Assembly (NCBI RefSeq): GCF_900199635.1
Contig: NZ_LT962687.1
Coordinates: 791,501-855,500 of the forward strand
Source of the DNA: Anaerotruncus massiliensis (ex Togo et al. 2026)
Lineage (GTDB): Bacteria; Bacillota; Clostridia; Oscillospirales; Ruminococcaceae
DNA: 64,000 bases
Direction: 5' to 3'
This document shows, one piece after another, positions 20,831 to 45,300 of the stretch. The notes below the pieces were generated by a model. The model worked only from the letters and a program-made list of their open reading frames with translations, did not search any database and was not told the origin of the DNA. Positions within the stretch are counted from its first letter, which is position 1, and each line of letters starts with the position of its first letter. Made by a program: the position numbers and the translations under genes.

Positions 20831-21066
20831 GGTTATCGCATGGCCTTATAAGCCTGAATCCTGGAAATTGTCAAGACAAAATTTCGCCCGCTAGACCGGA
20901 TAATTGGACGGGCGGACTGATACAATGAAAGCATATAGAACGTATGTTTCTTAAAAAGGCGAACTTTTAAAAAGAGGCGGCTTAGGAGGGGGTGAAGAGA
21001 GAAAAGCAATTTCAGGGTGGGATGGCGGGTTTCTATAAACAATACAGCATAAAGGGAGGAAATTTC

Positions 21067-22065
21067 ATGTCAAGCACAAACAAACTGCCAAATTCGGATT
21101 TAAACCAATGGGTGGCAAGCGACCGGCCGGTGATGGAGGATTTCAACCGCGACAACGAGATTATCGACGGGCTGGTGGGACACCTCAAAAAGACGCCCTA
21201 TGTCGGTGCGGACGGCTGCTGGTATGTGTGGGACACCGACGTCGCCGAGTACGTCAAGAGTGAAACCAAAGCGCGCGGTGAAATCGGCCCGCAGGGCCCG
21301 AAGGGAGAACAGGGGCCGCGGGGCCCGAAGGGCGATACCGGCGTAAAGGGAGACACCGGCGCGGGGTTCCGGGTGCTGGGGCTCTTTGAGTCGGCGGCGG
21401 CGCTTGCCGGAGCGCACCCGGTCGGTACGGCGGGCGACGCCTATGCGGTTGGGACCGCGGCGGACAACCGCATCTATATCTGGTCTGACGAGAACGTGTG
21501 GAAGGACATCGGCGTATTGCAGGGTCTGCAGGGCTCGCAGGGCGAACAGGGCCCGCAGGGTGTTGCCGGACCTCAGGGTGCGATCGGTCCGGCTGGTGAA
21601 CCGGGGCCAAAAGGTGAACAAGGCGTTCAGGGGCCGGCTGGACCGCAGGGCCCCAAAGGGGACCCCGCTGTAATCAATGGGAAAATGCCTGATGCGGGCG
21701 GCACGATCTCCCTGACGGCGGATGACATCCCGGAGACCGATGGGCGCAAGTTCGTGAGTCCGGAGGAAAAGTCCGGCTGGAATGGGAAAGCGTCCCCGGC
21801 GAGGAACGTCACGGCGACGCTGACGGCGGCGGGCTGGATGGGTGACGCGGCCCCCTATACGCAGGCATTGGCCATCGCGGAGATCGTGGGAGCGGAGACG
21901 CCGGGGACCATCGGGCTGGCGGCGGCCACGACCGCCGAGCAGTATGACGCGGCAGCGGCAGGCAAGCTGCTGCTCACGGCGCAGACCGCCGGACAGGTCA
22001 CGGTATCCGCGCTGGGCGAAAAACCGGGCATGGATATCCCGGTGCTGATTACGATTGTGGGGTGA
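21067..22065 (+). CDS. Collagen-like tail-fibre-type protein 1
   Basis: A 332-residue protein without signal peptide. Residues 1-60 (STNKLPNSDLNQW, RPVMEDFNRDNEIIDGLVGH) resemble the N-terminal attachment part of phage tail-fibre proteins. Gly-X-Y collagen repeats (about 62-95 and 155-205) are interrupted by a GxVLGLFxS...GDAYAVGT...IYIW module common in tail fibres. The C-terminal 125 residues form a separate domain ending VPVLITIVG. The start ATG21067 has GGGAGG upstream; the frame is open further upstream without a ribosome site. First gene of the RHS-linked island and a paralogue of 24100-24978. Confidence 0.75.
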   Translation: MSSTNKLPNSDLNQWVASDRPVMEDFNRDNEIIDGLVGHLKKTPYVGADGCWYVWDTDVAEYVKSETKARGEIGPQGPKGEQGPRGPKGDTGVKGDTGAGFRVLGLFESAAALAGAHPVGTAGDAYAVGTAADNRIYIWSDENVWKDIGVLQGLQGSQGEQGPQGVAGPQGAIGPAGEPGPKGEQGVQGPAGPQGPKGDPAVINGKMPDAGGTISLTADDIPETDGRKFVSPEEKSGWNGKASPARNVTATLTAAGWMGDAAPYTQALAIAEIVGAETPGTIGLAAATTAEQYDAAAAGKLLLTAQTAGQVTVSALGEKPGMDIPVLITIVG

Positions 22066-22069
22066 CAGA

Positions 22070-22912
22070 ATGTTGAACACAGCATTCCCTTGTGACAGCG
22101 GCGGCGGGAGTAACCCGCTGAAACTGCCGGAATTCGAGTATACCGGCCAGAGCCAGACGGTCCTCGAGGAGGGCGTCGGCTGGAAAATCAAGTTTTTGAC
22201 GAGCGGCACCTTTACATTGATTTCTCCGGCAAAACTGAATATCGACGTGTTCCTCGTTGGTGGCGGCGGCGGTGGTGGAAATGGCTTTATGGCAACAAGA
22301 GGAAGCGGTGGGGGTGGTGGATATACTACCACGATCATTACTTCGATCATGGCAGGTACCCCTTATGCAATCGAGGTCGGCGCTGGGGGCGCCTCAGATC
22401 AGCCGGGATCTCCCACGCGGGGATTTGGAACGGCGGCGAACGGCGGGAATCCGGGGACACCGGGCGACGGCAGCAACGTTGGCGGCACAGGCGGGAACAA
22501 CGGCGGTAAAGCGGCCGACAATGGTAAGCCCGGCACCGGATATGACGGTGCGTCCAATGGCGATCCCGGTCAGGGCACGACAACCCGAGAATTTGGCGAA
22601 CCTTCGGGCGTAGATTATGCCGGTGGCGGCGGCGGTGGCGGCGTCAGCGGCAAGGGCGGAGATGGCGGCGCAAGTGGTGGTGTTGGGGGTGCGCGAAACG
22701 GTTCAACAGGAGAAAATGGTGCAAACGGTTCTCCAATAGAAGGTATTGGTGGGAAAGGAGGAAACGGCGGTACTTCCGGTGGTGGAGGCGGTGGAGGAAA
22801 CTACGGAGGCGGCGGAGGCGGAGCGGGCTCCGATGGCGGAATGCATGGAGGAGGTGCGGGCGGACAAGGCATCTGTATCATCCGAAATCACAGAGAGGAG
22901 AAAACAGTATGA
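22070..22912 (+). CDS. Glycine-rich (polyglycine) adhesin-like protein 1
   Basis: A 280-residue protein. The N-terminal 70 residues (EYTGQSQTVLEEGVGWKIKF, FLTSGTFTLISPAKLNIDVF) are a short beta domain; the rest is runs of Gly with Asn, Ser and Asp, such as GGGGGGGNG and GGNGGTSGGGGGGGNYGGG. This pattern is known from phage tail-tip adhesins that pack polyglycine type II helices. No signal peptide. It starts 4 nt after the collagen-like gene and overlaps the next gene by 4 nt (ATGA). It is a paralogue of 23149-24081. Confidence 0.7.
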   Translation: MLNTAFPCDSGGGSNPLKLPEFEYTGQSQTVLEEGVGWKIKFLTSGTFTLISPAKLNIDVFLVGGGGGGGNGFMATRGSGGGGGYTTTIITSIMAGTPYAIEVGAGGASDQPGSPTRGFGTAANGGNPGTPGDGSNVGGTGGNNGGKAADNGKPGTGYDGASNGDPGQGTTTREFGEPSGVDYAGGGGGGGVSGKGGDGGASGGVGGARNGSTGENGANGSPIEGIGGKGGNGGTSGGGGGGGNYGGGGGGAGSDGGMHGGGAGGQGICIIRNHREEKTV

Positions 22913-23142
22913 ATTACGCAATCATCCAAAACGGCGTGGTGGTGAACATGATCGTCATCGCGCCCTACAACACATCCGATTTCCCGGACGCGGTGCCGGT
23001 AGGGGACAAGCCGGTCGGCATCGGGGACGAGTACCGGGACGGGAAGTTCTGGCGGGACGGCGCGGAGATTTTGTCCCCAGCTGAGTCAGAGTTCTCCAGA
23101 GTGAAAACACAAGGGATTTTGAAACGTATCTTCAGGAGGTAA
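22909..23142 (+). CDS. Small tail-fibre-associated protein, 77 residues
   Basis: Starts MNYAIIQNGVVVNMIVIAPY and contains PVGDKPVGIGDEYRDGKFW, a pattern I associate with short proteins encoded beside tail-fibre genes in Clostridia prophages. No catalytic motif or membrane segment. It overlaps the upstream glycine-rich gene by 4 nt and sits between the two glycine-rich paralogues, so it was probably inherited with that module. Function unknown; a fibre chaperone or trimerisation role is only a guess. Confidence 0.65.
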   Translation: MNYAIIQNGVVVNMIVIAPYNTSDFPDAVPVGDKPVGIGDEYRDGKFWRDGAEILSPAESEFSRVKTQGILKRIFRR

Positions 23143-23148
23143 TCAAGC

Positions 23149-24081
23149 ATGCTGACAAGTTGCTTTTTGTCCGGAGGAGGTTCACCCTCCCCCGGAGGGT
23201 GGGTCGATGTGCCGCAGTTTACATACACCGGTCAGTCAGAGACCATCGTCGAAGAGGGCATCGGATGGAAAATCCGCTTTTTGACCTCGGGCACCTTCAC
23301 GCTGCTTTCCCCGGACCGCATGATGATCGACGCCTTTCTCGTCGGCGGCGGTGGCGGCGGAAACCGCGGTTATCTTGTGAGCAGCAACGGGGTAGCTGGA
23401 GGTGGCGGAGGGGGCGGTTTTACTGGTACATTTTTTGTACAGGTTGAAAAAGATGTACCATATGATATCGTCATTGGCGCAGGTGGAGCGGGTGCTACTA
23501 GTAACGGTAGCACAGGAAAAGACGGGGGAGCATCCAAGGCCTTTTCATATACCGTCGGGGGCGGCTGCGGCGCGGTCAATTACGTTGGCGGAGCAGGTGG
23601 CAATAACGGCGGTTCTACTCCAGACCCTAACACAAACGGCGCAGGGCGTGATGGAGCATCCGACGGCAGTCCCGGTCAAGGCACGACCACCCGCGAATTT
23701 GGGGAAGCCGATGCAGAGGACTACGCGGGGGGCGGCGGTGGCGGTGCCCGAGCTTTTGGAAGTTCGAATAGAGCCGCTGGCGGAAATGGAGGCGCAAATG
23801 GTGGGGCAGGAGGAAACATCTCCAATGATTATGGAAATGGGCGCCCCGGGGCTTTCATTACAGGGAGGGGCGGCAATGGTGGTCTTGGCGTCTTCTCTTC
23901 GACAGCACGTGCCGGCGGCGGTGGCGGCGGCGGAAACTACGGCGGCGGTGGTGGAGGCGGCGCAAGCGCCTATACTTCTTCAGTTACTGCGGGTGAAGCT
24001 GTAGCCAGCGGCGGTGCTGGCGGTCAGGGCATCGTCATCATCCGCAACCATCGTGTGAAACAGGCAACTTTATCGGATTGA
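23149..24081 (+). CDS. Glycine-rich (polyglycine) adhesin-like protein 2
   Basis: A 310-residue paralogue of the protein at 22070-22912. The N-terminal beta domain is conserved (FTYTGQSETIVEEGIGWKIR, FLTSGTFTLLSPDRMMIDAF), and the SPGQGTTTREFGE segment and GGQGIVIIRNHR ending are shared. The Gly-rich body differs in length and content, suggesting diversification of the exposed tip. AGGAGG precedes ATG23149, 7 nt after the small gene. No signal peptide. Confidence 0.7.
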   Translation: MLTSCFLSGGGSPSPGGWVDVPQFTYTGQSETIVEEGIGWKIRFLTSGTFTLLSPDRMMIDAFLVGGGGGGNRGYLVSSNGVAGGGGGGGFTGTFFVQVEKDVPYDIVIGAGGAGATSNGSTGKDGGASKAFSYTVGGGCGAVNYVGGAGGNNGGSTPDPNTNGAGRDGASDGSPGQGTTTREFGEADAEDYAGGGGGGARAFGSSNRAAGGNGGANGGAGGNISNDYGNGRPGAFITGRGGNGGLGVFSSTARAGGGGGGGNYGGGGGGGASAYTSSVTAGEAVASGGAGGQGIVIIRNHRVKQATLSD

Positions 24082-24099
24082 AACGAGAAGGAGAATAAA

Positions 24100-24978
24100 A
24101 TGGCAAGTACAAATAAATTTCCGAACACCGGTCTAAACCAGTGGGTCGAGACAGACAAACCCGATATGGCCGACTTTAATCGCGATAACCAGCTGCTGGA
24201 CGCGATGGTGGGCCATCTGACCAGGACGCCTTACATCGGTGCGGACGGCTACTGGTATATCTGGGATCAGGAGCTGAAGGATTACTCCAGATCCAACCAG
24301 CGGGCGCAGGGAGAAACCGGCCCACAGGGGATCAGGGGGCCCGCCGGCCCGGAAGGCCCACAGGGAGAACCGGGCGCGGGGCTGAAGATCCTCGGGCTGT
24401 TCGCTGCCGTGGAGGCGCTTTCACAGGCCCACGGCACAGGCGGCAGCGGTGAAGCATACGCTGTGGGAACCGCCGCGGAAAATGAGATCTATATCTGGTC
24501 CGCGGACCAGAACGCATGGGTTAGCGTAGGCGCTTTGCAGGGGCCGCAGGGCCCACAGGGCGAAGCCGGTCCGCAGGGACCGGAAGGCAAAGCGGGCCCT
24601 CAGGGAGTTCAGGGAGTTCAAGGCCCGGTCGGACCTGCGGGCCCGCGAGGAGAAACCGGACCGCGCGGTGAAGCGGGCCCCCAGGGGCCGAAAGGCGAAC
24701 CGGGCGCATCTCAGATCGTTACGGTGACGCTCGGCGTGGCGGACTGGACGGAAGATCCGGATCAGGGCTGGTGGACACAGCCCGTTCCCGACGGCCGGAT
24801 CGTTGACGGAACCGTCCTGGAAATGACCTTCCCGGCGGCATATCTGAACCAGCTCGAAGCAGACGGCAGCGTGATCATTCTGCGCAACAACGGCGGCGTT
24901 GCAACCGCATACGCATTGAAGGCTGCGCCCACCGCGGATCTTGTTGCACAGATTGAAATCAGAAAGGTGGATATGTAA
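24100..24978 (+). CDS. Collagen-like tail-fibre-type protein 2
   Basis: A 292-residue paralogue of the protein at 21067-22065. The N-terminus ([31 protein letters not shown]), the Gly-X-Y blocks (from about residue 70 and 150) and the interrupting [17 protein letters not shown] module are conserved. The C-terminal domain (from [18 protein letters not shown]) is unrelated to that of paralogue 1, as expected for swapped receptor-binding tips. AAGGAG precedes ATG24100. The stop is directly followed by the next start. Confidence 0.75.
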
Positions 24979-26208
24979 ATGGATACTTGGAGCAATTTTG
25001 TTGGAAGCCGGAGCGGAAGCGGCGTAGGACATATGATGCAGCAGGTGAAACTTCCGCGCAGTACGCTGAGCGGGCAGTCCTCCAGTTTTATGCAGGAGCT
25101 GACCATGAACCTGACGGGATGGACCAGCTATGGCTACAATATGTCGCTCACTTGGGGTGATACCATATATGTTCAGGTGAAGAACACGCTGTTAACGTAT
25201 CATCGTAGCACCAAAACGCAAGGGGACAACATTCGTATGATGGGAAACTACGACGAAAACACTCGCTTTGTACAGGTCATTGTCGATAAGCGAGCCTTCC
25301 TGCTCTCCGGATACACACTCTTCTTCAGCGTGTTGGATTTGGAGTCCGGTCAGGTCACTAAATTGAGCGCACCTCCTTATGGATTAAATAATTATTATAA
25401 TCAGGCGGCAAATATCTTACCTGTCATGCGCTATGACCGCGCTTATAACAAGATTTATGCAGCGATTCCTATTCGGTACTATCCTAACAATACGGCTTTA
25501 AATGGCTACGAATTAGCTGTGTATGATGTGGCCTCCAATACTTGGACATTGCTCAATCGAAACCCGGATTTCTGCAAAGCATCAAATAATTCGGGGAAAG
25601 GCTGTTTAATTGACTTTAACGAGGATACAGTCAAATTTGTCAGCAATATGGGACGTTCTTCCGGAGCGCCTTGGAGCTTTACCACCCCCAGAAACGCGGC
25701 CCCCAGCGGAGGGGTTTTTAATACAACAGAAACGATCTATACGCGATTGCGCGGAAACACGGACGGCCATGGCTCCAGCGCAACAATCGTGCAGACGGAT
25801 GACAAAGTATTCGGCCTGCAGGGAAGCAAGCTCTTTACCTTCGATCTGTTCACGGGAGAGACCAGCGATGAGAGCCTGTTTGGAGCGGTCCCGGTTTCCA
25901 ACAGCGGGAACTATCCGGCCGTGCAGGCCTATGGATGTAACTACTGCGATGGAAAGATGTGGTACTGCGACGGCCAGCGGCTGTTCTCGTTGGATTACGA
26001 CTTGACTGTAAAACCGGACGGCCCTCTGGTGTGGAAGATTTTTAAAGGGCAGAAATACAGCGCTCCGGACCCGATCACACTGCATAAGCCTGACGGCAGC
26101 ACTTTGGAGATCACCGCCGGACAGCAGGAAGCGGCCGCCGACATTGAAATCCACATCGGCGAGTATGACAACAACCAGACGGACAAATATCTGCTGATCG
26201 AGAATTGA
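24979..26208 (+). CDS. Predicted beta-propeller-like protein of the RHS island
   Basis: A 409-residue protein with no recognised family. Repeating segments of the form hydrophobic strand-turn-strand, for example YELAVYDVASNTWTLLNR, KVFGLQGSKLFTFDLFTGE and KMWYCDGQRLFSLDYDL, resemble Kelch/propeller blades. No signal peptide. ATG24979 directly abuts the stop codon of collagen-like gene 2, so the two are probably co-translated. The base composition is lower in GC than in the flanking genes, suggesting recent acquisition. It may be a fibre tip or a structural partner of the collagen-like proteins. Confidence 0.55.
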   Translation: MDTWSNFVGSRSGSGVGHMMQQVKLPRSTLSGQSSSFMQELTMNLTGWTSYGYNMSLTWGDTIYVQVKNTLLTYHRSTKTQGDNIRMMGNYDENTRFVQVIVDKRAFLLSGYTLFFSVLDLESGQVTKLSAPPYGLNNYYNQAANILPVMRYDRAYNKIYAAIPIRYYPNNTALNGYELAVYDVASNTWTLLNRNPDFCKASNNSGKGCLIDFNEDTVKFVSNMGRSSGAPWSFTTPRNAAPSGGVFNTTETIYTRLRGNTDGHGSSATIVQTDDKVFGLQGSKLFTFDLFTGETSDESLFGAVPVSNSGNYPAVQAYGCNYCDGKMWYCDGQRLFSLDYDLTVKPDGPLVWKIFKGQKYSAPDPITLHKPDGSTLEITAGQQEAAADIEIHIGEYDNNQTDKYLLIEN

Positions 26209-26218
26209 GGTAAAAAGA

Positions 26219-26416
26219 ATGTATACATACTTTAAGTTTGATGGGACGCAGACGGTAAACGGCGCCGCTCCGGAAACGATCATTCAAGCCTTCGGATGGA
26301 CAAAGGACAAGCCTCTTTGGTTCATTGAGGTGGACGGAGAAATCCGTTACAACCTGGTCGGCAGCGAAGACGATGTAAAGGCGTTCATCGGGGAAAGCGA
26401 AGCTCCGCGGGAATAG
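26219..26416 (+). CDS. Hypothetical protein, 65 residues
   Basis: Starts MYTYFKFDGTQTVNGAAPET and contains PLWFIEVDGEIRYNLVG. GAGG lies 10 nt upstream of the ATG. No motif is recognised. It sits in line between the propeller-like and cohesin-like genes, so it is counted as part of the same transcript. Confidence 0.55.
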   Translation: MYTYFKFDGTQTVNGAAPETIIQAFGWTKDKPLWFIEVDGEIRYNLVGSEDDVKAFIGESEAPRE

Positions 26417-26429
26417 GGACAAGTTGACC

Positions 26430-26455
26430 GGGAGCCGTCCCCATGGACGGCTCCC
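26430..26455 (+). other. Intra-operon hairpin
   Basis: Perfect 11-bp stem GGGAGCCGTCC/GGACGGCTCCC with CCAT loop and only CTT after it. It may attenuate or stabilise the transcript before the cohesin-like and RHS genes. Confidence 0.5.
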
Positions 26456-26473
26456 CTTGAAAGGAGACAGAAT

Positions 26474-27040
26474 ATGAGCCCGCAAAAAACGGACGGATGC
26501 ACCTGGGAACAATGCGCATTTACATGGAGCGAGCTTGCTTTATCGGGAAGGAGCTGGGCGGAACTGGAAGTCTGCCAGCCCCGTCCGGAACCGGACCCGG
26601 ATGCGGGGTACACCTGGGAGGACATTGAAAAGGCAAAACTGGACTGGCAGATGCTGACGGACAAGCAGCCGACCTGGCAGGAATGGCAGGAGCTCATCCC
26701 CGGCGGCAACTGGGCGGATTCACTCACCGTATCCGTGGCAGAAGGAGAGGCACTCGTTTTGCAGGTCAACGCCCTGAACGCGCCCGCGGCGCAGGGAATC
26801 ACCTTCGTCATCGTATACGATCCCGCCGCGGTATCCTGGGAGGGCTTCCCGCAGAAGGACGTCGGCCTCGCGGTGAACAATCCCCTGCTCCCGGAGACGG
26901 CCTCGCATGAAAACGGGAAGCTCAAGCTGCATCTCCCCATCGCGCCGGAAGAGCCGTGGACGGGGATCATCACCCTGCTGGGGTTCCACGCGAAAAAAGC
27001 CGGAGAACTGACCTTTGCCCTTAAAGGAGGGACATTATGA
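26474..27040 (+). CDS. Trp-rich protein with a cohesin-like C-terminal domain
   Basis: A 188-residue protein. The N-terminal 75 residues contain repeated Trp-acidic motifs (CTWEQCAFTWSELAL, YTWEDIEKAKLDWQML, TWQEWQEL). The C-terminal 105 residues follow the cohesin pattern: SVAEGEALVLQVNAL, then GITFVIVYDPAAVSW, and a late GIITLLGFHAKKAGEL. Cohesins bind dockerins or act as jelly-roll adhesion modules; the assignment here is by pattern only. It overlaps the RHS gene by 4 nt (ATGA), so tight coupling to RHS is likely. No signal peptide. Confidence 0.55.
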   Translation: MSPQKTDGCTWEQCAFTWSELALSGRSWAELEVCQPRPEPDPDAGYTWEDIEKAKLDWQMLTDKQPTWQEWQELIPGGNWADSLTVSVAEGEALVLQVNALNAPAAQGITFVIVYDPAAVSWEGFPQKDVGLAVNNPLLPETASHENGKLKLHLPIAPEEPWTGIITLLGFHAKKAGELTFALKGGTL

Positions 27041-30000
27041 CAACCTATGAAGACAACGGCAGCCTGAACATGGAGCTTACGGAGGAAACGGGCGCACAGG
27101 AAGCGGCGGTCCCTATGGCCGCGGCCGCAAGCGACCGCGCCGAATACATCGACGCGATCCCCCGCGAGTACGTGGAGGCGCCCTACCACATCGCCTATAA
27201 AGGCAACGAAACCGTTTCCCTCAACAGCGGCGCCCTGCAGCTCTCTTACACGGACGTCCACCTGCCGGGCTTAAACGGCTTCGACCTCGACGTGGTGCGG
27301 TCCTACGACTCCACCGCTTCGGGCGCCCAGTACGCCATCCCGGAAAAAACCAGCGGAAGCTGGTACGGACAGGATGTCCGTTATGACACCAAGCTGGAAA
27401 TGCGGTATATGTATTTCAAAAGCAAAAGCGAGCTCAGAGATCAGCGGGAGAGCAACGGTTTCACAGCGGACGACTACTTCCTCGACGATATCATTACTGG
27501 AAAGCGTCTCAAAACCATCGCCCGTACAAACGACCACTTCCTCAAGCTCTACGGCCTGGGATACGGCTGGCGGTTCAATTTCCCCTCCATTGAATACAGT
27601 GCGCCCACAGAAATCATGGAGATTCAGGAAGGACTGCGCGGCACCATGTACCTGCACCTCGACGACGGACGCTCCATCACCATCGCCCGCAACTATGAAA
27701 AAAGAGTCTGGGAGTTTGAGGACTACGAGGAAAAGGACATCACCCTCTCCTTTCCCTCCGGGCAGACGGTGGTGACCCACCGCAGCGGCCGCAAGGACGT
27801 TTTTTCCGGCACCGAGGAGGATATCCGGCTCCAGTATATGGAGGATAAGTTCGGAAACCGGATCTCCTTTGGTTACACGGGCGGCCGCCTGAGCCGGATC
27901 ACCGACACCATGGGGCGTGTTCTCAATCTGAAAGAAACCGTCTCGGGCAATGTGAAGACCCTCTACTGGCAGCAGGAGGAGACAGGGGATATCCTCTGCA
28001 AGTATACGGTGCGGGACAACCTGCTCGCGGACATGCGCGCCGTCATCGGGGAAGGCAGCGAGCGCGTCACGGCCTACGAGTACACCCCGAAGAGCGGGAA
28101 TACCCGGTTGTTCCTGAAGTCGAGCCAGTCGGCGGACGACGGTATCGATATCACCTATCAACTCCTGACGGCCATCCGGCACCCCTCGGGCGCGCGGACG
28201 GAATATACCTATCAGGGGATCAGCCGTGATCTTCCGAGCTGCATGCACGGCACGGTCTACAGCTTCGCGGTACAGGCGCGCAGGGATTTCCCGGACCCGG
28301 CCGACCGGAACGCCGCAATACACGAGGAAACATACAGCTTTGCGGTGGGCGAACTGGACCTGACGGATAAACAGGTCAAGAAGGTTGGCAGGAACGGCTT
28401 CGGGGCCGATTATACCAAGACCGCGACGGTGGAATACCTCAAGGGCGGCGTTGCCGAAAAAAGGGTGGTCAGCAGCTTTGAAAGCAAGCACGGCATGCTT
28501 TCCACGGAGGAGACCTACCACATCATCTCCGGTGCGGCCAGACTCGTGGGCAGGCGGGAGATCAGGTACGAATTTGAAAACCGCGGCAAGCGCAAGCTGC
28601 CCGTCTCGGAGACGGATACGGTTTACGATCCGCAGGGCGGCGGCGCCCGGAGCAAGACGATGACCTGGGCCTACGACTCCAAGGACAATGTCACCGCATA
28701 TACGGAGAACTATCCGCAGGACGCCGCCAACAACCAGAACGTCTCCTCAACCTACGATCTCTCCTACAGCCTCATGACCGGGAGGGTTACGACGAACACC
28801 TCCGGCACGATCCGGGAGGCGTACACGCTTACAAGCGACAAAAAGCTCGCGGCCGAGAAGCGGGTCTATGACGGCGACGTTCTCAAGGAGCGCGCCGCCT
28901 ATGAATACGACGGACAGAATCGTCTGATCCGGGAAAAACGGTACTACGGCGATCCGCTGGATACCACGGAGGACTGCGCCGTCACCGAGTACGTTTACGG
29001 CCCCTACTCCCCCGAGCCCATCGAGGTACGGCTCCTCGGCGTGAAGGACGCAAACGGCAACCTGATCGCTCCCACGGATACGGCTGATGCGGCAGGCACC
29101 ATCAAACAGACGGCAGTGTTCGATTGGTACGGCCGCCAGACCTCCGCGACGGACGGAAACGGCCATACCTCCACGGTGGAATACGACGGTCTCGGCCGCA
29201 AGGTGAAGGAAACGAACCCGGACGGGACCTTCCGCACCGCCGAATACGACGACGCCAACAATCGCATCGCCACCGCGGACGAGGCGGGAAACCGTTCACG
29301 GCTCCAGTATACGCCGCTCGGCCGGATCGAACGGGAGTCCCTGCTGGACGGGGAGACGGAGATCCCGGTTGCCTCGTTTACATACGACCATCTGGAGCGC
29401 CTGACGGAACAGACGGCATACGGCGGGGACGGCACGGTCAAGAATCGCACCGCGCAGGTCTACGATCTCTACGACAACGTGATCTCCAGGACGTTGACGG
29501 ACGCGGCGGGCAAGGAGCTCTATAAAGAAACCGCCGTCTATGAACCCGTCGTGGAGAGCAGGTATTCCCGCGTGACCAAAACGGTCGACGGGGACGCCGC
29601 CGCGCCTTCCGTCGTCACGCAGGCGACCAGCGACCAGCTCGGCCGTGTGGTGGAAGAGCGCATGAAGGGGACGGCGGATTCCGTCGTTGTCCACGGCTAT
29701 GATAAGCTGGGCAACAAAGTCTCCACGATCGATCCCAACGGGAACGTCTCGAGATGGGAATACGACCACGCGGGCCGTGTGACAAAGGAGACGAACGCGG
29801 CGGGCAAGTCATCCCTCACGGCCTACGACGCGCTCGGGAATAAGGTTTCCACGACCGATCCCAAGGGAAACGCCACGCTGTTTCACTACGACGCGGCGGG
29901 ACGCCTCATCCGGCAGGAAGCGCCGTTCGAGGGGGGCACCCGCGCGGTTTCGCGCTACTTCTATGACGCTGCGGGCAACGTCCTCCGGCAGGAGGTGCTG

Positions 30001-32343
30001 TGCGGCGCGCCGGGCGAACCGGAGGCGTGGCGGAAGACCGAATACCGCTACGACAATCGGAACCGCGTCACGGATACCATCCTCTTCGAGGCGGACGGGA
30101 GCGAAAACCGCACGCGGTACGAATACGACGCCGCGGGAAACAAGGTCGCGGTGTACACCGGCATGCTCGGCGATTCCCTAGACGGCGCGGCAAAGACCAC
30201 CTGCGAATATAACCGCTTCGGCAAGGTCGTCAAAATGGTGGACCCGCGCAGCAACGCGCTGCCGGCGGACGATCCGCTCTACCTTGTGGAGACCTGCGTC
30301 TATGACGCGGTGGGACGGCTCGTGAGCAAGACGGACCGCAATAAGAACACGACCGTCTATGCCTATGACGCGCTGGACCGCGTCCTCTCCGAGACGGTGA
30401 CGGTGGATGGCGTCCCTGAGAGCATCTCCCACAGCTATACCAAGACGAACCAGAAGCTGTCCGACTCGAACGGTATGCTGGCGGTGACCTACCGCTACGA
30501 CGCGCGGGGCCGCCTTGTGGAACAGGTGGAATCGGACGGCGTCGTCAAGAGTCTCGCCTACGACGCGGCGGGCAACCGCACAGGCTTTACCCTCACACGG
30601 AACGGCACGGCGGAAATCTCTCTCGGCTATGCCTATGACAGCCTCAACCGATTGGCGGAGGTGAAGAAGGGGGAGGCGGTGATCGCGCGGTATGCCTACG
30701 ACGACAACGGCAACCGGATCTCGCTGGAATACCCCGAGAGCGGCCTCACGACGGCGTATACCTACAATTCCGCGAACCTTGTGACCTCGCTCGTCAACAG
30801 GCGCGGAGACACCGTCGTGTCCTCCTACAGGTATACCTATTATCTCGACGGCAACCAGAAGAGCAAAACCGGGGCGGACGGCAAGGTGACGGACTACGTC
30901 TATGACGGCATGGGCAGGCTCGCGCGGGAGAGAGAGGCGGAGGGCAACACGATCTCCTACGCCTACGACCGCTTCTCCAACCGCTCCAGCATGACGGTGA
31001 CAGGCGGCGAGACCTACACGACCACCTATGGCTACCACCCGAACAACTGGCTGCTGACCGAGGAAAAGCGAGGGAAAGATACGGTTGAAACCTACCGTTA
31101 CCGCTATGACGGCAACGGCAACCAAGTGTACCGGGAATGGAGCAGGACCGGTCCGGACGACGGGACGCCGCCGCGGGTGGGCTATGTGCCGAACGGCTTC
31201 CGCAGGGAACTTGCCACGCTGGAAATAAGAGGGTATAATGGATTTAACCAGACGGCATCCCTCTACGCGGACGGCGAGCGGACGGCCTATACCTACCGTC
31301 CGGACGGGCTTCGCTACGGCAAGACCTACGGGAGCGGCGCGGACGCAACGGGCGTTACCCACCTGTGGGACGGGCAGAACATCGTGGCGGAAGTCGGCGC
31401 GACGGGCGTCATCGTGGCGCGGTATCTGCGCGGCGCAAACCTGATCGCCCGCGAGCAGGACGGCGCGCTCCAGTACTACCTCCACAACGCCCACGGGGAC
31501 GTGGTGCAGCGGACGGACGCGCTGGGAAACCTGCTGAAGAACTACCGGTACGACGCCTTTGGCAACGAAGAGCATCCGGAGCCGCTGGATGTGAACCCCT
31601 TCCGCTACTGCGGCGAGTACTTCGACCGTGAGACGGGCGATTACTACCTGCGCGCGAGAAGCTACGACCCGAGAACCGGCAGGTTTACCGCCGAAGATTC
31701 CACACGTAGTTCCGATGTATCCCTACCCGGAGATAAGAAGACTATCGATCCGCTCAGCCTCAATCTTTATATTTATTGCCGTGGAGATTCTATTAACTTC
31801 ATTGATCCAAGCGGTAACAGATCAAAATGGATTGATTTGGGGAAAGGTTGGAAGGTACGGATAGACCCTCCGCATACAGATAAAGGCTTAAAGCATGTTC
31901 ATCTTGAGTATAAAGATGGGAAGAAAAAATTCTCACAAAATGATGATGGATCTCCTCACGATAAAAACAAAAAATCGCCCGGAGATCCGCCGACAAAAGT
32001 TCTTGAGAGACTTAGAGAAGAAACTGATTGGGACTGGCAGGCGAACCAGCAAGACTGGGCAGATAAAATTACTATAGAAACCGATGAAAAGGGGTGGACT
32101 TTTGTATTTCCTGACGGAAAGCGAGTCCGAGAGTATTATTCGACAGGAGAAATTATGGCGATGCCTACCTCAGAGATGCTTGCAGGTTATTACGTTATGG
32201 AGGGGGATTATATTGAACTAAATCAACCTCAAACAACAGGGCCCAATTCAACGGTATTATTCCCTTTCTTTGGAGCAAATTTTAATTTTGATTTTAGCTT
32301 TAGTTGGACTCCATTTTCCGGTCCCATCCCTGTGTTTGGTTAA
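27037..32343 (+). CDS. RHS-repeat protein with variable C-terminal (toxin-like) domain
   Basis: A 1768-residue polymorphic-toxin-type protein. Residues 40-100 form the RHS N-terminal region (VHLPGLNGFDLDVVRSYDS). YD repeats run from about 220 to 1420 (for example YDGLGRKVKETNPDGT, YDALGNKVSTTDPKGN) and would form the encapsulating shell. The core (about 1420-1587) includes LNPFRY-like DVNPFRYCGEYFDRETGDYY and ends at NFIDPSG. The last 180 residues are AT-rich, differ in codon use, and carry GLKHVHLEYKDGKKKFSQND and TKVLERLREETDWDW, of no family I can name. There is no signal peptide. GGAGGG precedes ATG27037. Confidence 0.88.
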   Translation: MTTYEDNGSLNMELTEETGAQEAAVPMAAAASDRAEYIDAIPREYVEAPYHIAYKGNETVSLNSGALQLSYTDVHLPGLNGFDLDVVRSYDSTASGAQYAIPEKTSGSWYGQDVRYDTKLEMRYMYFKSKSELRDQRESNGFTADDYFLDDIITGKRLKTIARTNDHFLKLYGLGYGWRFNFPSIEYSAPTEIMEIQEGLRGTMYLHLDDGRSITIARNYEKRVWEFEDYEEKDITLSFPSGQTVVTHRSGRKDVFSGTEEDIRLQYMEDKFGNRISFGYTGGRLSRITDTMGRVLNLKETVSGNVKTLYWQQEETGDILCKYTVRDNLLADMRAVIGEGSERVTAYEYTPKSGNTRLFLKSSQSADDGIDITYQLLTAIRHPSGARTEYTYQGISRDLPSCMHGTVYSFAVQARRDFPDPADRNAAIHEETYSFAVGELDLTDKQVKKVGRNGFGADYTKTATVEYLKGGVAEKRVVSSFESKHGMLSTEETYHIISGAARLVGRREIRYEFENRGKRKLPVSETDTVYDPQGGGARSKTMTWAYDSKDNVTAYTENYPQDAANNQNVSSTYDLSYSLMTGRVTTNTSGTIREAYTLTSDKKLAAEKRVYDGDVLKERAAYEYDGQNRLIREKRYYGDPLDTTEDCAVTEYVYGPYSPEPIEVRLLGVKDANGNLIAPTDTADAAGTIKQTAVFDWYGRQTSATDGNGHTSTVEYDGLGRKVKETNPDGTFRTAEYDDANNRIATADEAGNRSRLQYTPLGRIERESLLDGETEIPVASFTYDHLERLTEQTAYGGDGTVKNRTAQVYDLYDNVISRTLTDAAGKELYKETAVYEPVVESRYSRVTKTVDGDAAAPSVVTQATSDQLGRVVEERMKGTADSVVVHGYDKLGNKVSTIDPNGNVSRWEYDHAGRVTKETNAAGKSSLTAYDALGNKVSTTDPKGNATLFHYDAAGRLIRQEAPFEGGTRAVSRYFYDAAGNVLRQEVLCGAPGEPEAWRKTEYRYDNRNRVTDTILFEADGSENRTRYEYDAAGNKVAVYTGMLGDSLDGAAKTTCEYNRFGKVVKMVDPRSNALPADDPLYLVETCVYDAVGRLVSKTDRNKNTTVYAYDALDRVLSETVTVDGVPESISHSYTKTNQKLSDSNGMLAVTYRYDARGRLVEQVESDGVVKSLAYDAAGNRTGFTLTRNGTAEISLGYAYDSLNRLAEVKKGEAVIARYAYDDNGNRISLEYPESGLTTAYTYNSANLVTSLVNRRGDTVVSSYRYTYYLDGNQKSKTGADGKVTDYVYDGMGRLAREREAEGNTISYAYDRFSNRSSMTVTGGETYTTTYGYHPNNWLLTEEKRGKDTVETYRYRYDGNGNQVYREWSRTGPDDGTPPRVGYVPNGFRRELATLEIRGYNGFNQTASLYADGERTAYTYRPDGLRYGKTYGSGADATGVTHLWDGQNIVAEVGATGVIVARYLRGANLIAREQDGALQYYLHNAHGDVVQRTDALGNLLKNYRYDAFGNEEHPEPLDVNPFRYCGEYFDRETGDYYLRARSYDPRTGRFTAEDSTRSSDVSLPGDKKTIDPLSLNLYIYCRGDSINFIDPSGNRSKWIDLGKGWKVRIDPPHTDKGLKHVHLEYKDGKKKFSQNDDGSPHDKNKKSPGDPPTKVLERLREETDWDWQANQQDWADKITIETDEKGWTFVFPDGKRVREYYSTGEIMAMPTSEMLAGYYVMEGDYIELNQPQTTGPNSTVLFPFFGANFNFDFSFSWTPFSGPIPVFG

Positions 32344-32368
32344 TATTATAGATTTTAAGGAGATTCTT

Positions 32369-32824
32369 ATGAAATACTTCAAAAAAGAATATTGGGAAAT
32401 GATGAACTCAATCGATAAAAATGAACGGAATGAGGCATTTGAAAAATGGAATAATTCCGTCCGAAAGTACAGTGCCGAATTTGAAAAAGCCAGTGCAGAT
32501 CTCCCGGAAGCCTTTTTGAAGCACTATCTTAACTCCCAAAATTTTCACGATGCTATCGTCACACAAATTAATTATATGACAATCGGTGATGATAAAGGCA
32601 AAGTTGACATTGGGATTTCTACTGTAGAAAATCATTATGTAATTACATATCTCGATGTGGAAAAATTCCTAGTGGACATCCCACAAGATAAGCACTGGCT
32701 CGGTGGAGAAATGCGCTGGGGATACGATGAATTTGAAAAGGTCAAAGGTGGACTCTGGGAACATAGAATCCTTACAGATGGCGGTGAAATACAGATTATA
32801 TATAAAAAACTAAAGATTCAATGA
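32369..32824 (+). CDS. Candidate immunity protein for the RHS toxin
   Basis: A 151-residue acidic protein directly downstream of the RHS gene (25 nt gap). Its low GC matches the toxin tip. N-terminal MKYFKKEYWEMMNSIDK and the later LPEAFLKHYLNSQNFHDA recall the DUF4085 group found beside polymorphic toxins; that match is from memory. The open frame extends upstream into the RHS gene, but AAGGAG with proper spacing selects ATG32369. Position and composition are the main evidence for an immunity role. Confidence 0.65.
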   Translation: MKYFKKEYWEMMNSIDKNERNEAFEKWNNSVRKYSAEFEKASADLPEAFLKHYLNSQNFHDAIVTQINYMTIGDDKGKVDIGISTVENHYVITYLDVEKFLVDIPQDKHWLGGEMRWGYDEFEKVKGGLWEHRILTDGGEIQIIYKKLKIQ

Positions 32825-32879: not shown

Positions 32880-33360
32880 TTGATTGCCACACTAAGGATG
32901 AAAAGGTATAATGGATTTAATCAGATGGTATCCCTCTACGCGGACGGCCTATACCTACCGTCCGGACGGGCTGCGCTATATGGAAGCAGATGCGGTGTCT
33001 ATACGAAAAACCAGGGAGATGCCAAAGCCCTTGCCATCCCTCTGGGATTATCCGCCAAAGAACTGCCTGAACATCACAAAGGGATAAACTCGACCGGAAG
33101 CTACTAGGGTCATTATCATGCTCCGTTCACGGGCAAAGCTCACGGCATGCAAATTTGGTTTGGGAACCCGATAAAATAGGAGGTGTCAGACGAATTGTAT
33201 ACCGAGTACTATGATGATATGGCCCCCATAACAATTGTTATTCTTTGATGTGAAGCGAACGGTGTACCCTATCGCTTGGAGGATCTTTCTGGCCCAAAGG
33301 ACATAACGCCAATATCTGAATCGTATAAATGAGCTTTCGGAAAATTAAACCCAGCTCAGA
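32880..33360 (+). pseudogene. Displaced RHS tip with decayed toxin and immunity remnants
   Basis: Bases about 32886-32985 are a near copy of the RHS core at about 31215-31325 (YNGFNQ..SLYADG). An 11-bp deletion after GCGGACGG shifts the frame. The following frame encodes KALAIPLGLSAKELPEHHKG, then SY, an in-frame TAG at 33105-33107, and GHYHAPFTGKAHGMQIWFG, the look of a different RHS toxin C-terminus. After it, 33195-33360 contains broken fragments (YTEYYDDM, GVPYRLEDLSGPKDITP) of what may have been its immunity gene. Confidence 0.7.
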
Positions 33361-33795: not shown

Positions 33796-36700
33796 ATGCG
33801 TAACAAAAAGCGGTTTTTCTCAGGATTTCTGGCCGCGCTGATGCTCTTATCCGTCGGACTTCCGGTGTTGGCGGAAGAACTCCCTGAGGCGGAGAGCAAG
33901 CCGGTTTGCACCTGTTCCGCGCGCTGCAATGCGGACGCGCCGGATGAGGACTGCCCCGTCTGCCGGGAGGACCCGGCGGATTGCATGGGCACCCCCTCGG
34001 ATGAGGACGGCGATGACGCGGATAAACCCGTCTGCACCTGCGCGGCCGCCTGCTCGGAGGACGCGCCGAACGGAGACTGCCCCGTCTGCCGGGAGGATCC
34101 GGCGGATTGCATGGGCACCCCCTCGGATGAGGACGGCGATGACGCGGATAAACCCGTCTGCACCTGCGCGGCCGCCTGTTCGGAGGACGCGCCGAACGGG
34201 GATTGCCCCGTTTGCCGGGAGGATCCGGCGGACTGTATGGGCACCCCCTTGGAGGGGGACAGCGATGGCGCGGATAAACCCGTCTGTATCTGCGCGGCCG
34301 CCTGCTCGGAGGACGCGCCGAACGGAGACTGCCCCGTCTGCCGGGAGAACCCGGCGGACTGCGGCCGCGCGCCGGTAGTCCTGCCGGACGCCGGGTCGGC
34401 AAACGGGCTCCCGGCGGCCGAAGGAGCGGACGCGCCGGAGGAACCCGAAATCGTTGTGTATTTCCACAGCAACTGGCCCGACGCGGAAGATGAGACGGTC
34501 GTCAGAGAGCTGGTCCAATCGGATAGTTTGTATGTTTGGCTGTCCGACTCCTGGGATGTGTTCGGTTCCTCGCTGGATTTGAATACATGGGGATTTGCCG
34601 GCTGGAATACCCAGAGGGACGGAAGCGGAAGAAGCTATGCTTCCCATGACAAGGCGTATATCAAAATTTATGGGGATGGCCTGCCGATAGAATATCATTT
34701 TTATGCGCAGTGGGATACAAACTCAGGCCCGATGGATTATCGTGTCACTCTGGATCCAAACGGTGGGGGAATTTGGGATGACAAGCAGGAAAAATATGTC
34801 GGAGAACCTCTTGAAATAATGCTTTTTGACGCAATCTTCGGATGGGCTCCCACCCCGGATGACGTTTCGTACGACGGCCACGAGTTCAAAGGCTGGTGCC
34901 GCGACAAAGAGGGGAACGGGAAAATCTATCTGGATGAGGACATCGTCCTCTGGGAGGAGACGACCACCCTCTATGCGCAGTGGACGCCCATTGTTTCGCC
35001 GGAATCGGTTACCCTCCATCGGAACCTCTCGAAGGAGGATCATTACACGGTCGCCTGGGAAAAAGAAGAAATGCCGTGGCCAGGAGCGAATCTCGATATC
35101 AATATATCCGAGGAACGGGCCGCCCGTTTCCTCTTCTGGACAACGGAACCCGACGGCGGGCAAATCGTGAAACGATGGGGAAGCATCCCGGCCGACCTGT
35201 ACGCGCAATGGGTCGAGGCAGCGGACGGCCGGGCCGTGACGTATTATTCCGATGAGCTTTACAGGAACCCCAACGCAGCTTACCAGGTCTTTGACCTCTC
35301 GTCGGAAACGGCCCTGCGCTCCCCGGAAGAGCTTGGCTTTGGCCGGGAGGGATTCCTGGGCTGGTACGCGCGGGTCCGGTTCGACCCGGACGCGGATCCG
35401 GACGATGGTTTTCCTGACCGGTTTACGCAGAGGGACCTCGACCAATACAGAAAAGATCCGAGCGTGCTGGGGATTGAACTCACCGCCCGCTGGGCAACCG
35501 GCGGTCATATCCTTTACGATGGAAACGGCAACACCGAGGGAAGCGTTCCGGTGGATCCCGCCTTCCATTCCATCGATGAAGATGTAACGTTATCCTTCCC
35601 CGCGGACCTCAAAAAAGACGACGGCGTCCTGACCTCCTGGAACACGGCGGCGGATGGGAGCGGAACCGGCTACTTCCCGGGCGGGAGAGGCCCCTGGCTG
35701 TCCGAGGATTTGAGACTCTACGCCCAGTACGCCGCGTTTGTCGAGCCCGATTCCTGCCGTGTGACCTATGACGCCAACGGCCTCGGCGGGACGGCGCCCG
35801 CCGATCCCACCGTCTACCGGTACGGCGAGGGCGCGGTGGTGCTTTCGCCAGACGGGCTCGTGCAGGGCCCCGGCCGCGAGTTCCTGCTCTGGAACACGCA
35901 GCCGGATGGGCAGGGGCTGGATTACCTGCCGGGCGGGACGCTGCGGGTCGCCGGCGACGTTACGCTTTACGCGATCTGGGGCAGGACGTATACGCTAACC
36001 TATGATGCGAACGCGGCGGAATACACCGGGGAGCTGCCCGCGCCGAAAAAATATCTTCAGGGGATCACTGCCCCGGTGGCGGGCTACGCCCTCCACCGGG
36101 ACGGCTGGCTCCATCTGGGCTGGTCCACCGAACCGGACGGAGGGATCATATACGGTTCCCGGTACGGCGATGATATGATCCCAGTGACGGAAGACACGAC
36201 CCTTTATGCGGTGTGGGTCAGCCCTCTGCGCGTCCGGTACGAAACCGGGCTTCCCGCGGACGACCCGGACCGGGCAAGGCTTGAAAAGCTGCTTCCGACG
36301 GACGAGAGGGGCTACCGTTACGCGGGTTCCACGGACCCGGCCTATCCCTCCGCAATCGAGGTCAAGGCCCCCGGGGAGCCGTTTACACGGGACGAATATT
36401 ATTTCGACGGCTGGAAATATGAGCGGAAATATTACTGGGGCGATCCATATGACGTCGAGGTCCTGCCCGGCGAAACCATTGACATGCGGAATGACGATCC
36501 GGATGAGCTGACCCTTGTCCTGCGCGCGGTATGGCGGGCGGAAGCCGACATCCGCCTGATCCCCTATGACGCGAATCTCCCGGAGGGAAAAACACTGATC
36601 GGGGAGCTGCCGCCGGACTTCAGAGCACCAAAAAACAGAAGCTTTAATTATTATGCGCCCGACGAACCGATCCCCGGCTGCGAGGGATATCTCTTTGCCG

Positions 36701-42317: not shown

Positions 42318-45300
42318 ATGAGAAAGACCAAGCGGATTCTGTCGGCCATGCTGGCCCTGATCCTGACGCTGACCATGTCGATGGGCGGCACGGTATCGGC
42401 TGCGGACACGGGAAGCGCGGAAATCCGGGCGTCCATCGAGGGCGGAGACCTGACGGAACCGTCCTTTGTGGGCGGGATGGTTCTTCGCATGAGGAGCTTC
42501 TTCAGCGCCGGAACGAACGGCGAGACCTGGCCTCATGGCGATGCGCTCGCCATGACCGAATATCAAAACGGCCCGGTCAGCAAGGAGTTCAACATTGTCA
42601 AGACGCCGGCGGGCGCGACCGCCACGGCGAGCGGCGGCTATGACGACCAGGGCCGCCAGATCGTCTCGGTGGAGGTGCTCGGGGCGGCGGACGCCGACGG
42701 GAACATCCCGGTGAGGGCCGCCGCCGTGAATCCCGGCGAAGCGACCGTCGTCTACACCATCCGCAAGAGCGGATACAGCCCGGCGACCGTGGAGCAGAAG
42801 GTGCAGGTCTTTGACCGGATGCGCCTTGCCAGCGAGGATTTTCCGGAAAAGGACGAGCTGATTTACGCGGGCACCGCGCGCGACTTTACCTATAGCGTTT
42901 CCGGAACCAATGGCGATATCCTCACGGAAAACGCCAAACTGGAGATGTCTCCGAACAGCGCGGCCACGCTGGACGCCGCGCCCGGCACCGGGCGCGGAAC
43001 GCTTAACGCGGTCTCGGCGGTCTACGGCGCGGACGTGTCCCTGACCGCCGGAAGGATCGCGGACGAGCCCTATCCGATGTATTTCTATGACGATTCGGAG
43101 GCGCTGGGCCGGACGATCTCCGTCTCGGATTCGGTCCTGTTCAAGGATCTGAAGTCCTCCCACCCCGACCTGGCGGCGGCGCTTTCGGGCGATAAGGGCG
43201 GCCAGACGATCACGGCGGGCTTCACCTACGGGCAGTTCGCCGACGACCAGTACCTCGAGTTTGCGACCACGCCGAAACAGAACGTGGCGCTCTCGATCGA
43301 TTCGGTCACCTTCCGCGGGGAGGAGATCGGCATCTCGGAGAGCGGCTTTGCCGTTTCGATCACGGGCGACACCGGGATCGCCAGGCTGACCGTCCCCAAG
43401 ACGGCCGGCGCGGGCGACTATGCCATCCGTCTGCTTGCCTCCCGCCCCAACGCCTATCTGGAGACGCCGCTGACCGTCAACCTCACGGTCGCGCAGGCGC
43501 AATTCACCGGCGTGGGACTTGCCTACAGCACGGGCGATCCGGAAGGCCCCGCCTGGGCGGATGCCGTGGACGGCAAAATTTCCGCCAAGTTCAACGCACG
43601 GTATGAAAAGGCGTTTGACGTTTCGCTCACCAGCGGCGACGAACGCCCGAACGGCGTCACCACCTTCGCCTCTTACCGCGCGTCCGGGCTGCCGGAGGGC
43701 GCCTCCTTCGAGGGGAACGTCCTCTCCCTGTCGGGCAAAAATCCGGTGGGCAGCTATCTCATCCCGGTCACCCTCTATGACCCGGCGGGCAACTATGCCG
43801 ACGCCGAGCTGGCGCTTACCTACCAGGTGGACAACACCTATACGATCGCGCTGAAGGACGTCACCGGCAATCTCGTCGGAAACGCCGAGATCGTCAACGG
43901 CTCGGACATCGTCGCGACGGTCCATCTGCCCTATGAGGATACGACGGGCAGCAACAAGCTGAACCTCCTCTTCTACCAGGACGGCGAGGATGGACGCATG
44001 AAGGCCGCGACGGCCGTTGCCAAGCTGGCCACCGGCGAGGGCGCCGTCACCGTCAAGAACAACGTCGTCACCGTTCCCAAGCGCCTGCCGGTGCTCGCGG
44101 AGGGGGAGACCTACGACCTTGTCACGACGGTCAGCGCCGACAACTACAACGACGCGCGGCTGACGGTCAAGATCATCGTCGACAAGGCGGCGATCACCGT
44201 GACCGACGTGGCGAGTTCGACCACCAACAGCAGCTACCAGACCATCGCTCCCGCGGCGGACGGCGAGACCTACGAGGCCGACCGGTTTGCCTATGGGGAG
44301 AACAAATACTTCCGGATCACCTCCGACTCCAAGAGCAGCGCGCAGTTTACGGCGGCCTCGCTCGTCTCCGCCGACGAGCCGGAAACCGACCTGCGGGATG
44401 CCTACCTCGTGAAGGAGAGCTTTGCCAAGGGCAAGAGCCTCATCCAGCTGGCGCCCGGGCTTCCCACGGGGGACTATGAGCTGACGCTGACGGGCGAGAG
44501 CTCCTCGTCCGACAAGGGCGGCAACTACCAGACCAAGACGATTGTCATCAAATTCACGGTGGCGCAGTCTCCGCTTTCGGTGGAGATGCGGGTGACCGGG
44601 GACGGCGTGAAGGCCGGGACCGGCGCGGACAACTTCGTCGTCACCCAGAAGGTCGCGGATTCCGGCCTCGTCTACACCTACCGGGTGGAGGTCACCGGGC
44701 CCGAGGGCGCGGCCGACACCGCGCAGGTGGCTCTCGACCCGTCCTCCGCGCAGGCGGGCGATTTCGACGAGGCTACCGGGACTCTGACCATTCCGGCGGA
44801 CACTGAACCGGGCGTCTACACCTATGTCTTTAACGGCACCGACAAGAGCTTCCAGTCCGGCAAGGTCACGCTGGTCGTCACGGTCGGCGACTACGCGCGG
44901 ATCACCAGGATCACCTCCAACACGAGCACCGTCAAGGCGTTCGCGCCGGGCGAGGACGACAAGGGCTTCGACTTCCGCACCCGCGCGCCGGAGGGGGTCA
45001 AGACGGTCCTGACCCTCACCAGGGATCCGGCGAACGCCAAGGTGGCCCTCACTGTCACGAACGGCAGGGGCGAAGCGGTCAAGACGATCAAGCTGAACAC
45101 GGCCGGCGACAAGATCGTCGTCCCGGCCAGCCAGTCGGCGGGCACCTACCATCTGACGATGGAGGTCACCCACGCGTCCCGTTCCTCCAGGACCTATCTG
45201 CTCGACCTGCGGATCGTGGGCAAGAATGAAATCACCTCGATCCACGACGAGGGGGAGGTCTACTCGACCGTGCCGGCGGACGGCGCGGCCACGCTGGACA

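Follow-up and report, generated by a model that had tools for sequence, protein, structure and literature searches.

A ten-gene operon of Anaerotruncus massiliensis seems to encode a toxin system in which phage-type fibres are combined with an RHS protein. The operon occupies positions 21067-32824 of a 64,000-nucleotide (nt) stretch, called the window here (G000:C7:791501-855500, within the 3.1-Mb genome; labels beginning with G are genomes and with L are loci). The reading we favour, and regard as fairly probable, is that the operon makes a leaderless, fibre-guided RHS bacteriocin which is induced by the SOS response and resembles a colicin, or a tailocin without a contractile particle. A wider proposal, tentative and judged slightly short of an even chance, is that it represents a self-contained class of non-contractile, SOS-released Clostridial bacteriocins, in which swappable fibres sit on an RHS-caged toxin through a tryptophan-repeat socket and the tips are inverted in some lineages. 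The evidence read directly from the sequence consists of gene order, N-termini without signal peptides by hydropathy, LexA-type boxes, an association between repeats and fibres, polymorphic tips and, in one relative, a toxin-immunity pair.

The features are as follows, with protein lengths in amino acids (aa).

20918-20926, + strand: extended -10-like element TGnTACAAT, read from the sequence, with no good -35; it no more than resembles the consensus.
20938-20950, + strand: LexA/SOS box GAACGTATGTTTC, 117 nt before the first gene, with the -10-like element just upstream.
21067-22065, + strand: collagen-like fibre 1, with a Pfam Collagen match, a phage-type fibre N-terminus and a C-terminal tip shared with phages.
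22070-22912, + strand: glycine-rich protein 1, matching PF21722 Gly_rich_2 (1.3e-13).
22909-23142, + strand: 77-aa small protein, matching phrog_14370, a family with no function assigned (1.2e-4); fibre-associated by position only.
23149-24081, + strand: glycine-rich protein 2, matching PF21722 (2.3e-9) and phrog_863, "tail fiber assembly" (9.3e-13).
24100-24978, + strand: collagen-like fibre 2, 60% identical to fibre 1 across fibre 1 residues 1-202.
24979-26208, + strand: 409-aa orphan protein without family assignment.
26219-26416, + strand: 65-aa protein, given no assignment by Pfam and PHROG scans.
26474-27040, + strand: WRC of 188 aa, a likely adaptor between fibres and RHS, with N-terminal tryptophan repeats and a cohesin-like C-terminus.
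27037-32343, + strand: leaderless RHS protein, matching RHS_repeat (1.1e-65) and RHS proteins of the PDB (5.5e-34).
32369-32824, + strand: probable immunity gene (151 aa), directly after the RHS toxin tip, matching DUF4085 (3.1e-6).
32880-33107, + strand: RHS-like remnant frame, YNGFNQMVSLYADG, compared by eye with YNGFNQTASLYADG in the RHS protein.

An earlier reading of the same DNA, the original prediction, had described ten co-directional genes here, and the program-made frame list agrees: all ten frames are intact and on the + strand, with junctions that range from 4-nt overlaps to a 57-nt gap. Three frames are listed from earlier GTG or TTG codons, and the ATG starts at 21067, 22070 and 32369 are the analyst's choice. 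Pfam likewise found the two collagen-like proteins (3.8e-13 and 7.7e-11), the two glycine-rich proteins and the one RHS protein that had been named. The glycine-rich proteins are probable fibre-tip adhesins. The RHS protein has RHS/YD repeats and an RHS core domain (Pfam, TIGR03696), and its shell extends to residue 1593 (about 31815), with TIGR03696 at residues 1505-1593 and the toxin tip beyond. The gene after the tip had been called a likely immunity gene and is retained as probable by its place and its DUF4085 match, the assignment in the window being one of position. The frame just 3' of it is probably the remnant of a displaced toxin-tip cassette.

The absence of evident signal peptides, also predicted, agrees with the hydropathy of the N-termini, which was used for this call rather than SignalP. 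The maxima run from -0.85 to 0.88, with the 77-aa protein nearest to the exported class at 1.89, and three signal-bearing proteins in the same window stand out at 2.5-2.9. No Sec signal peptide or PAAR domain was found on the RHS protein by Pfam, core-domain scan and hydropathy, and Pfam scans of it and two relatives showed no LXG/WXG N-terminus and no domain of the type VII secretion system (T7SS).

By its gene content, the operon is a member of a recurring Clostridial module, in which a fibre gene is followed by a WRC gene and then by the gene for a leaderless RHS protein, whose toxin tip varies and which is accompanied by an immunity gene. The name WRC stands for proteins that combine tryptophan repeats of 10-residue period with a cohesin-like C-terminus; the one in the window has eight tryptophans within its first 80 residues, several of them spaced 10 apart. 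A search with this 188-aa protein matched 4 of 247 genomes and led to G162 and G085, where a longer version lies directly upstream of a leaderless RHS gene. In G085 a LexA-type box is followed by a 190-aa fibre of the same N-terminal type, an 82-aa protein, WRC and RHS; the fibre in G162 is on the opposite strand to WRC-RHS. An RHS N-terminus scan of GTDB genomes then contributed 40 loci, with gene starts from a simple in-house gene caller, of which 35 were usable (L078, L080, L086, L097 and L100 had no complete RHS in the gene call and were dropped). A WRC was found just upstream of 13 of the 17 RHS proteins without a signal peptide and 0 of the 18 with one; two of the 17 are in doubt, L092 and L099, which belong to distant phyla, and L099 offers 130 nt of upstream sequence. 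The distance from WRC to RHS in the 13 loci is 17-66 nt. Their fibre gene was recognised by pattern in 11 and by reading in L070, and L075 is cut by the contig end. Lacrimispora-type Lachnospiraceae account for 12 of the 13.

Counted by lineage, fibre, WRC and leaderless RHS occur together in the Lacrimispora group and in G085, in this order in both, as well as in G162 and the window genome. These conserved neighbourhoods strongly support the earlier view of fibre adhesins and RHS effector as one leaderless module. Of 25 genomes of the Lacrimispora-type genus, 17 have a WRC, which in one case was recognised by partial matches. For that genus's family the count is 3 of 299 genomes, of which one is the query's own and another a weak match. 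For the class it is 10 of 391; apart from the window genome and one Lacrimispora-type genome, the remaining eight matches span only the cohesin-like end. Such conservation bears on the possibility that these are decaying prophage tail genes which adjoin an RHS gene by chance. Phage-type fibre domains and the RHS-like remnant at 32880-33107 would fit decay; ten intact frames, the same set in other genera, the spread of WRC through one genus and SOS boxes at the same place across loci do not. The conserved gene set appears to have largely refuted decay, to which we give next to no probability.

A second alternative is that the proteins stay on the surface of the producer or its spore, as a contact-dependent toxin with an adhesin, and are exported by some other route. 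Signal-bearing RHS proteins with a cohesin-like protein upstream lend it some support. At L190 a protein with the cohesin-like end is followed by an RHS protein with a signal peptide as the next gene, and at L195 one signal-bearing gene stands between the two. At L093 the protein 39 nt before the signal-bearing RHS matches a profile of WRC C-termini (1.4e-15), the only such match among close upstream genes of the signal-bearing loci. At L189, L191-L194 and L198 the gene after the cohesin-like-end protein has a signal-peptide-like start, with its RHS nature not visible. The module itself has no signal peptide by hydropathy and no T7SS-type domain in the Pfam scans, and it has an SOS box, all of which argue against retention on a surface; we consider it improbable. 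The spore-surface weapon of the original prediction gained no evidence. As for sporulation control, the aligned upstream regions show, by eye, a sigma-A-like promoter and LexA-type boxes, and no scan was aimed at sporulation promoters. Taken with the module, the signal-bearing loci suggest that a cohesin-like partner and RHS core may come in two forms, one secreted and the other SOS-controlled and bearing fibres.

The operon is apparently switched by DNA damage through LexA. The box at 20938-20950 is the only strict match in the 64-kb window, where 0.29 were expected; because 25 of 100 shuffles had at least one strict match, its weight is carried by its position and by the relatives. LexA sites have the form GAACN4GTTC in B. 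subtilis and GAAC....GTTT/C in C. difficile, according to an excerpt of PMC4234289. An alignment, read by eye, of the regions upstream of the Lacrimispora-type fibre genes shows a TTGACA/TATAAT-like promoter and GAACATATGTTC-type boxes. Across 11 Lacrimispora-type loci (214,955 bases), 18 strict boxes were found in 10 of the 11, and all 18 lie 44-336 nt before the fibre gene. Strict boxes occur within 4.5 kb upstream of the RHS gene in 12 of the 17 leaderless loci and in 0 of the 18 signal-bearing ones, where some RHS loci have less than 4.5 kb of upstream sequence. The loci are related by descent, so Fisher values for WRC or LexA against signal peptide overstate the evidence. Boxes are also present about 300 nt before the leaderless RHS gene of G005, a genome placed in the same genus as the window genome, about 100 nt before that of G024 and about 80 nt before the G085 fibre. 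Within the window genome, six of the 14 strict sites lie at most about 130 nt upstream of lexA, recA, uvrB, a DNA polymerase IV gene, a repair radical-SAM gene and this operon. Of the remaining eight sites, one (L200) overlaps a regulator-like gene's start, another (L206) is 49 nt before a lipoprotein-like gene, a third (L212) is 140 nt before a gene, and five are inside genes or far from a gene start.

The operon fibres are phage-type parts, judging by comparison of their sequences, because both the N-terminus and the C-terminal tip resemble phage and prophage fibres. The N-terminus common to both collagen proteins, MSSTNK..LNQW..DRP..DFN.DN, was matched in 35 of 247 family genomes and is shared by three places in the window genome. 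That of fibre 1 is 54% identical over 37 aa to the 155-aa fibre of a contractile element beside rpsT in the same genome, where the 155-aa protein follows baseplate proteins J and I. The tip of fibre 1 is 34% identical to a fibre of another of the genome's own prophages and 39-40% identical to proteins of two Enterocloster phages.

This fibre type usually keeps company with tryptophan repeats. Nine of 30 baseplate-J loci have a protein I tail with TWxxFD-type repeats and an MxSSNK-type fibre next, and no locus among the 30 has the repeats without the fibre or the reverse; about 11 of the other 21 are informative, about ten being without a readable protein I or next gene, and L159 and, in part, L151 and L157 were scored by reading. 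Other repeat-like tails lie beside other fibre types at L141, L142 and L154. Counted from the fibre, 18 of 27 loci have tryptophan repeats in the protein just upstream (27 of 29 were used, as L043 and L048 lacked the motif, and several are the same places as baseplate-J loci). The association between repeat and fibre is strong but not exclusive. The WRC repeats have the same 10-residue spacing as protein I, and seven of their tryptophans are invariant in 15 sequences. The tryptophan windows of five WRCs outscore 83 background windows on a profile of the protein I tail, with p from 5e-4 to 8e-10, windows within one protein not being independent. Because protein I tryptophan repeats usually accompany this fibre type, WRC probably docks fibres, and its repeats are predicted to be the socket for the fibre N-terminus. 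The call of a cohesin-like protein in the original prediction is only suggestive for the window protein by itself (E 0.082, below the cut-off) and draws its support from the relatives. At L022, L030 and L045 a 10-residue repeat with cysteine or phenylalanine in place of tryptophan accompanies the same fibre type; such variants are perhaps a variable docking code.

The ends of both fibre and toxin vary while their bases are conserved. When 11 Lacrimispora-type fibres are compared, the median identity is 87% in the first 38 residues, while 0 of 55 tip pairs match at E 1e-3. One tip resembles proteins of four Enterocloster phages, with 46-50% identity along half of the fibre. The median identity of the 12 RHS cores is 71%. 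Matches were obtained for 15 of 66 toxin-end pairs; in 13 they span 62-141 residues, and the other two, which both involve L064, reach 179-209 residues at 34-37%. The immunity candidates differ among the relatives as well, and at L079 an RNase-type toxin end with a Barstar partner can be read directly as a toxin-immunity pair. These results also bear on a host-directed reading, with an adhesin and toxin aimed at animal cells, which the collagen-like and glycine-rich proteins might suggest. The probable immunity genes, including the Barstar beside the RNase-type tip, and the tip similarity to Enterocloster phages point instead at bacteria, and an animal target is very improbable.

Some relatives seem to have a means of exchanging tips. 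In 7 of 12 loci (L064, L067, L069, L070, L075, L079 and L082), a core resembling a recombination site is present in the fibre gene and again, inverted, downstream. L064 (6014-8365) and L070 (6103-8511) have a Xer-like tyrosine recombinase among inverted tip pieces between fibre and WRC. A fibre gene with inverted tips and a recombinase is the anatomy of a shufflon, here attached to a toxin module and recognised from its arrangement in the DNA.

The original prediction had also raised the possibility of cargo for a particle encoded elsewhere. The fibres and RHS protein would then arm a contractile particle or prophage tail such as the element beside rpsT, which has sheath and baseplate J by profile, a protein I with tryptophan repeats and a fibre N-terminus matching the operon's; a sheath match was found somewhere in 13 of the 15 module genomes. 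On the other side, the profile search gave no sheath match in the other two, G162 and G332. Eleven of 12 Lacrimispora-type genomes yielded a single match to the fibre N-terminus, that of the module; the twelfth, G334, whose module contig is cut, yielded none. WRC has repeats of its own. The 188-aa protein alone had no relative in IMG/VR, and the WRC and RHS N-terminus alignments had none in IMG/VR or the other viral collections searched. As predicted, no sheath (PF04984) or baseplate J (PF04865) is in the window, all profile matches of the genome lying outside it, and reading the gene lists of the window and the Lacrimispora-type loci showed no portal, tape measure or other baseplate genes, nor, in the list of the window, a holin gene. 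Inspection by eye of the surroundings of the module in its relatives, from about 4.5-7.5 kb upstream to the downstream end of each locus, showed neither sheath nor baseplate J, and no adjacent prophage or contractile system was found in the stretches read. The sheath and fibre searches in the 15 module genomes weaken the idea of a dedicated particle, which seems unnecessary in the relatives but possible in the window genome, where the N-terminus at three places may have a second use on the element beside rpsT. Overall we rate it as unlikely, though the strongest of the alternatives.

For the SOS-induced bacteriocin, the following course of events is proposed. DNA damage would relieve LexA, and the cell would then make phage-type fibres, WRC, an RHS shell enclosing the variable toxin tip, and an immunity protein for its kin. 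The fibre N-terminus would dock on the WRC tryptophan repeats, as it apparently does on phage baseplate protein I, while the cohesin-like end of WRC would hold the RHS protein. The complex may leave by lysis of some producers; this is the weakest step of the proposal, because no lysis gene was found in the operon. The fibre tip would bind a target bacterium, and the toxin tip would be freed and enter it. The original prediction had considered a new export route; SOS control, which it had not noticed, now seems the better explanation and would suggest that the complex is released by lysis.

Several observations weigh against this proposal. The relaxed LexA pattern separates the loci less cleanly than the strict one (14 of 17 leaderless, 4 of 18 signal-bearing), and genome-wide the strict pattern has 16 matches at its 14 sites, compared with 11 for a reversed control. 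The G162 module has no LexA box nearby by strict or relaxed patterns, and in G005 and G024 the leaderless RHS protein has a box without an accompanying WRC or fibre. The fibre type occurs without tryptophan repeats upstream: three of the 27 fibre-first loci have the other 10-residue repeats (L022, L030, L045) and three have no repeats (L023, L025, L039), and a further three showed no upstream protein. Most module loci come from one genus and hence are not independent, the window WRC is short (188 aa, relatives about 350), and the window operon has extra genes. No holin-like or lysis gene was matched by Pfam or PHROG among the ten operon proteins. The fibre loci that lack tryptophan repeats, together with the weaker separation by the relaxed LexA pattern, keep our confidence moderate.

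Other observations concern the rest of the operon and the genome. The original prediction had called the 409-aa protein propeller-like, and this was not borne out: no Pfam, PHROG, phage-record or convincing PDB-sequence match was found, and no relative in 297 family genomes (its own excepted), IMG/VR or 50,697 phage records. Its best PDB sequence reached only E 0.42, so the propeller label was dropped. Two large proteins 3' of the operon, at 33796-37824 (1342 aa) and 42318-52364 (3348 aa), have signal-peptide-like N-termini.

The window genome has a second leaderless RHS protein (L011 6642-13724; G000:C7 about 352.6-359.7 kb), preceded by a ricin-type lectin protein and by a holin of the BhlA family (E 2.1e-21); no LexA box was found in the 20 kb read. 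It is possibly another arrangement of receptor and release.

The compact phage-like element beside rpsT (L013 7420-17990 and L056 193-1939; G000:C7 about 175.4-187.9 kb) is also in G003, of the same genus (L058 143-12394). By reading, it comprises terminase, portal, capsid, short sheath, tube, baseplate J and I and the 155-aa fibre, and no tape-measure, lysis or integrase gene was noticed by eye. The idea that it is family-wide was dropped; among L019-L048, rpsT is in the fetched stretch only for L020, in addition to the window genome. In G075 (L053 1941-6049), three adjacent fibre-like genes have related N-termini and one ends in an endosialidase-type chaperone domain; no RHS gene was seen in the 20 kb read.

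The proposal suggests how leaderless Gram-positive RHS toxins might leave the cell and find a target, and it predicts, as a docking rule, that tryptophan repeats receive a phage fibre N-terminus. The combination of LexA box, fibre N-terminus and repeats may serve as a search signature for more such systems, which are a possible source of narrow-spectrum agents against gut Clostridia.

Colicins and S-type pyocins are leaderless and SOS-controlled, and combine a receptor part, a toxin part and immunity. The operon appears alike in its leaderlessness and its layout of receptor, toxin and immunity, and its LexA-type box would fit LexA control; it differs in its several proteins, phage-type fibre receptor, RHS shell, Gram-positive producer and the lack of a lysis gene found in the operon. 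Tc toxins have an RHS shell around a toxin tip and a receptor-binding partner. Both appear to have parallels here, but no TcA-like pore subunit was matched by Pfam in a search limited to the ten proteins. The RHS/YD-repeat toxins (Rhs of the type VI secretion system, WapA, teneurin-like) share the RHS shell, TIGR03696 core, toxin tip and a gene in the immunity position, whereas the operon has no matched signal peptide, PAAR or export domain and adds fibre, WRC and an SOS-type box. A survey, in the portion consulted, describes RHS and tail-fibre repeats as parts of toxin proteins under several export systems (PMC3482391), and some teneurin-like RHS proteins are without signal peptides and may use other routes, according to an excerpt of PMC13018210. 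No description of SOS-controlled, fibre-linked RHS toxins was found in the open-licence PubMed Central literature, among the matches listed. Tailocins, diffocins and contractile injection systems have phage-type fibres in common with the operon, and diffocins are SOS-induced (PMC6088184, in excerpt), but there is no sheath or baseplate J in the window and none was seen by eye around the modules inspected. Shufflons and phage fibre inversion are alike in the inverted repeats in the fibre gene, the inverted alternative tips and, in two loci, the tyrosine recombinase; here the arrangement is attached to a toxin module, and it is in the Lacrimispora-type relatives, not the window. Altogether this suggests that the system is a variant of the RHS polymorphic toxins which may work like a colicin or a tailocin.

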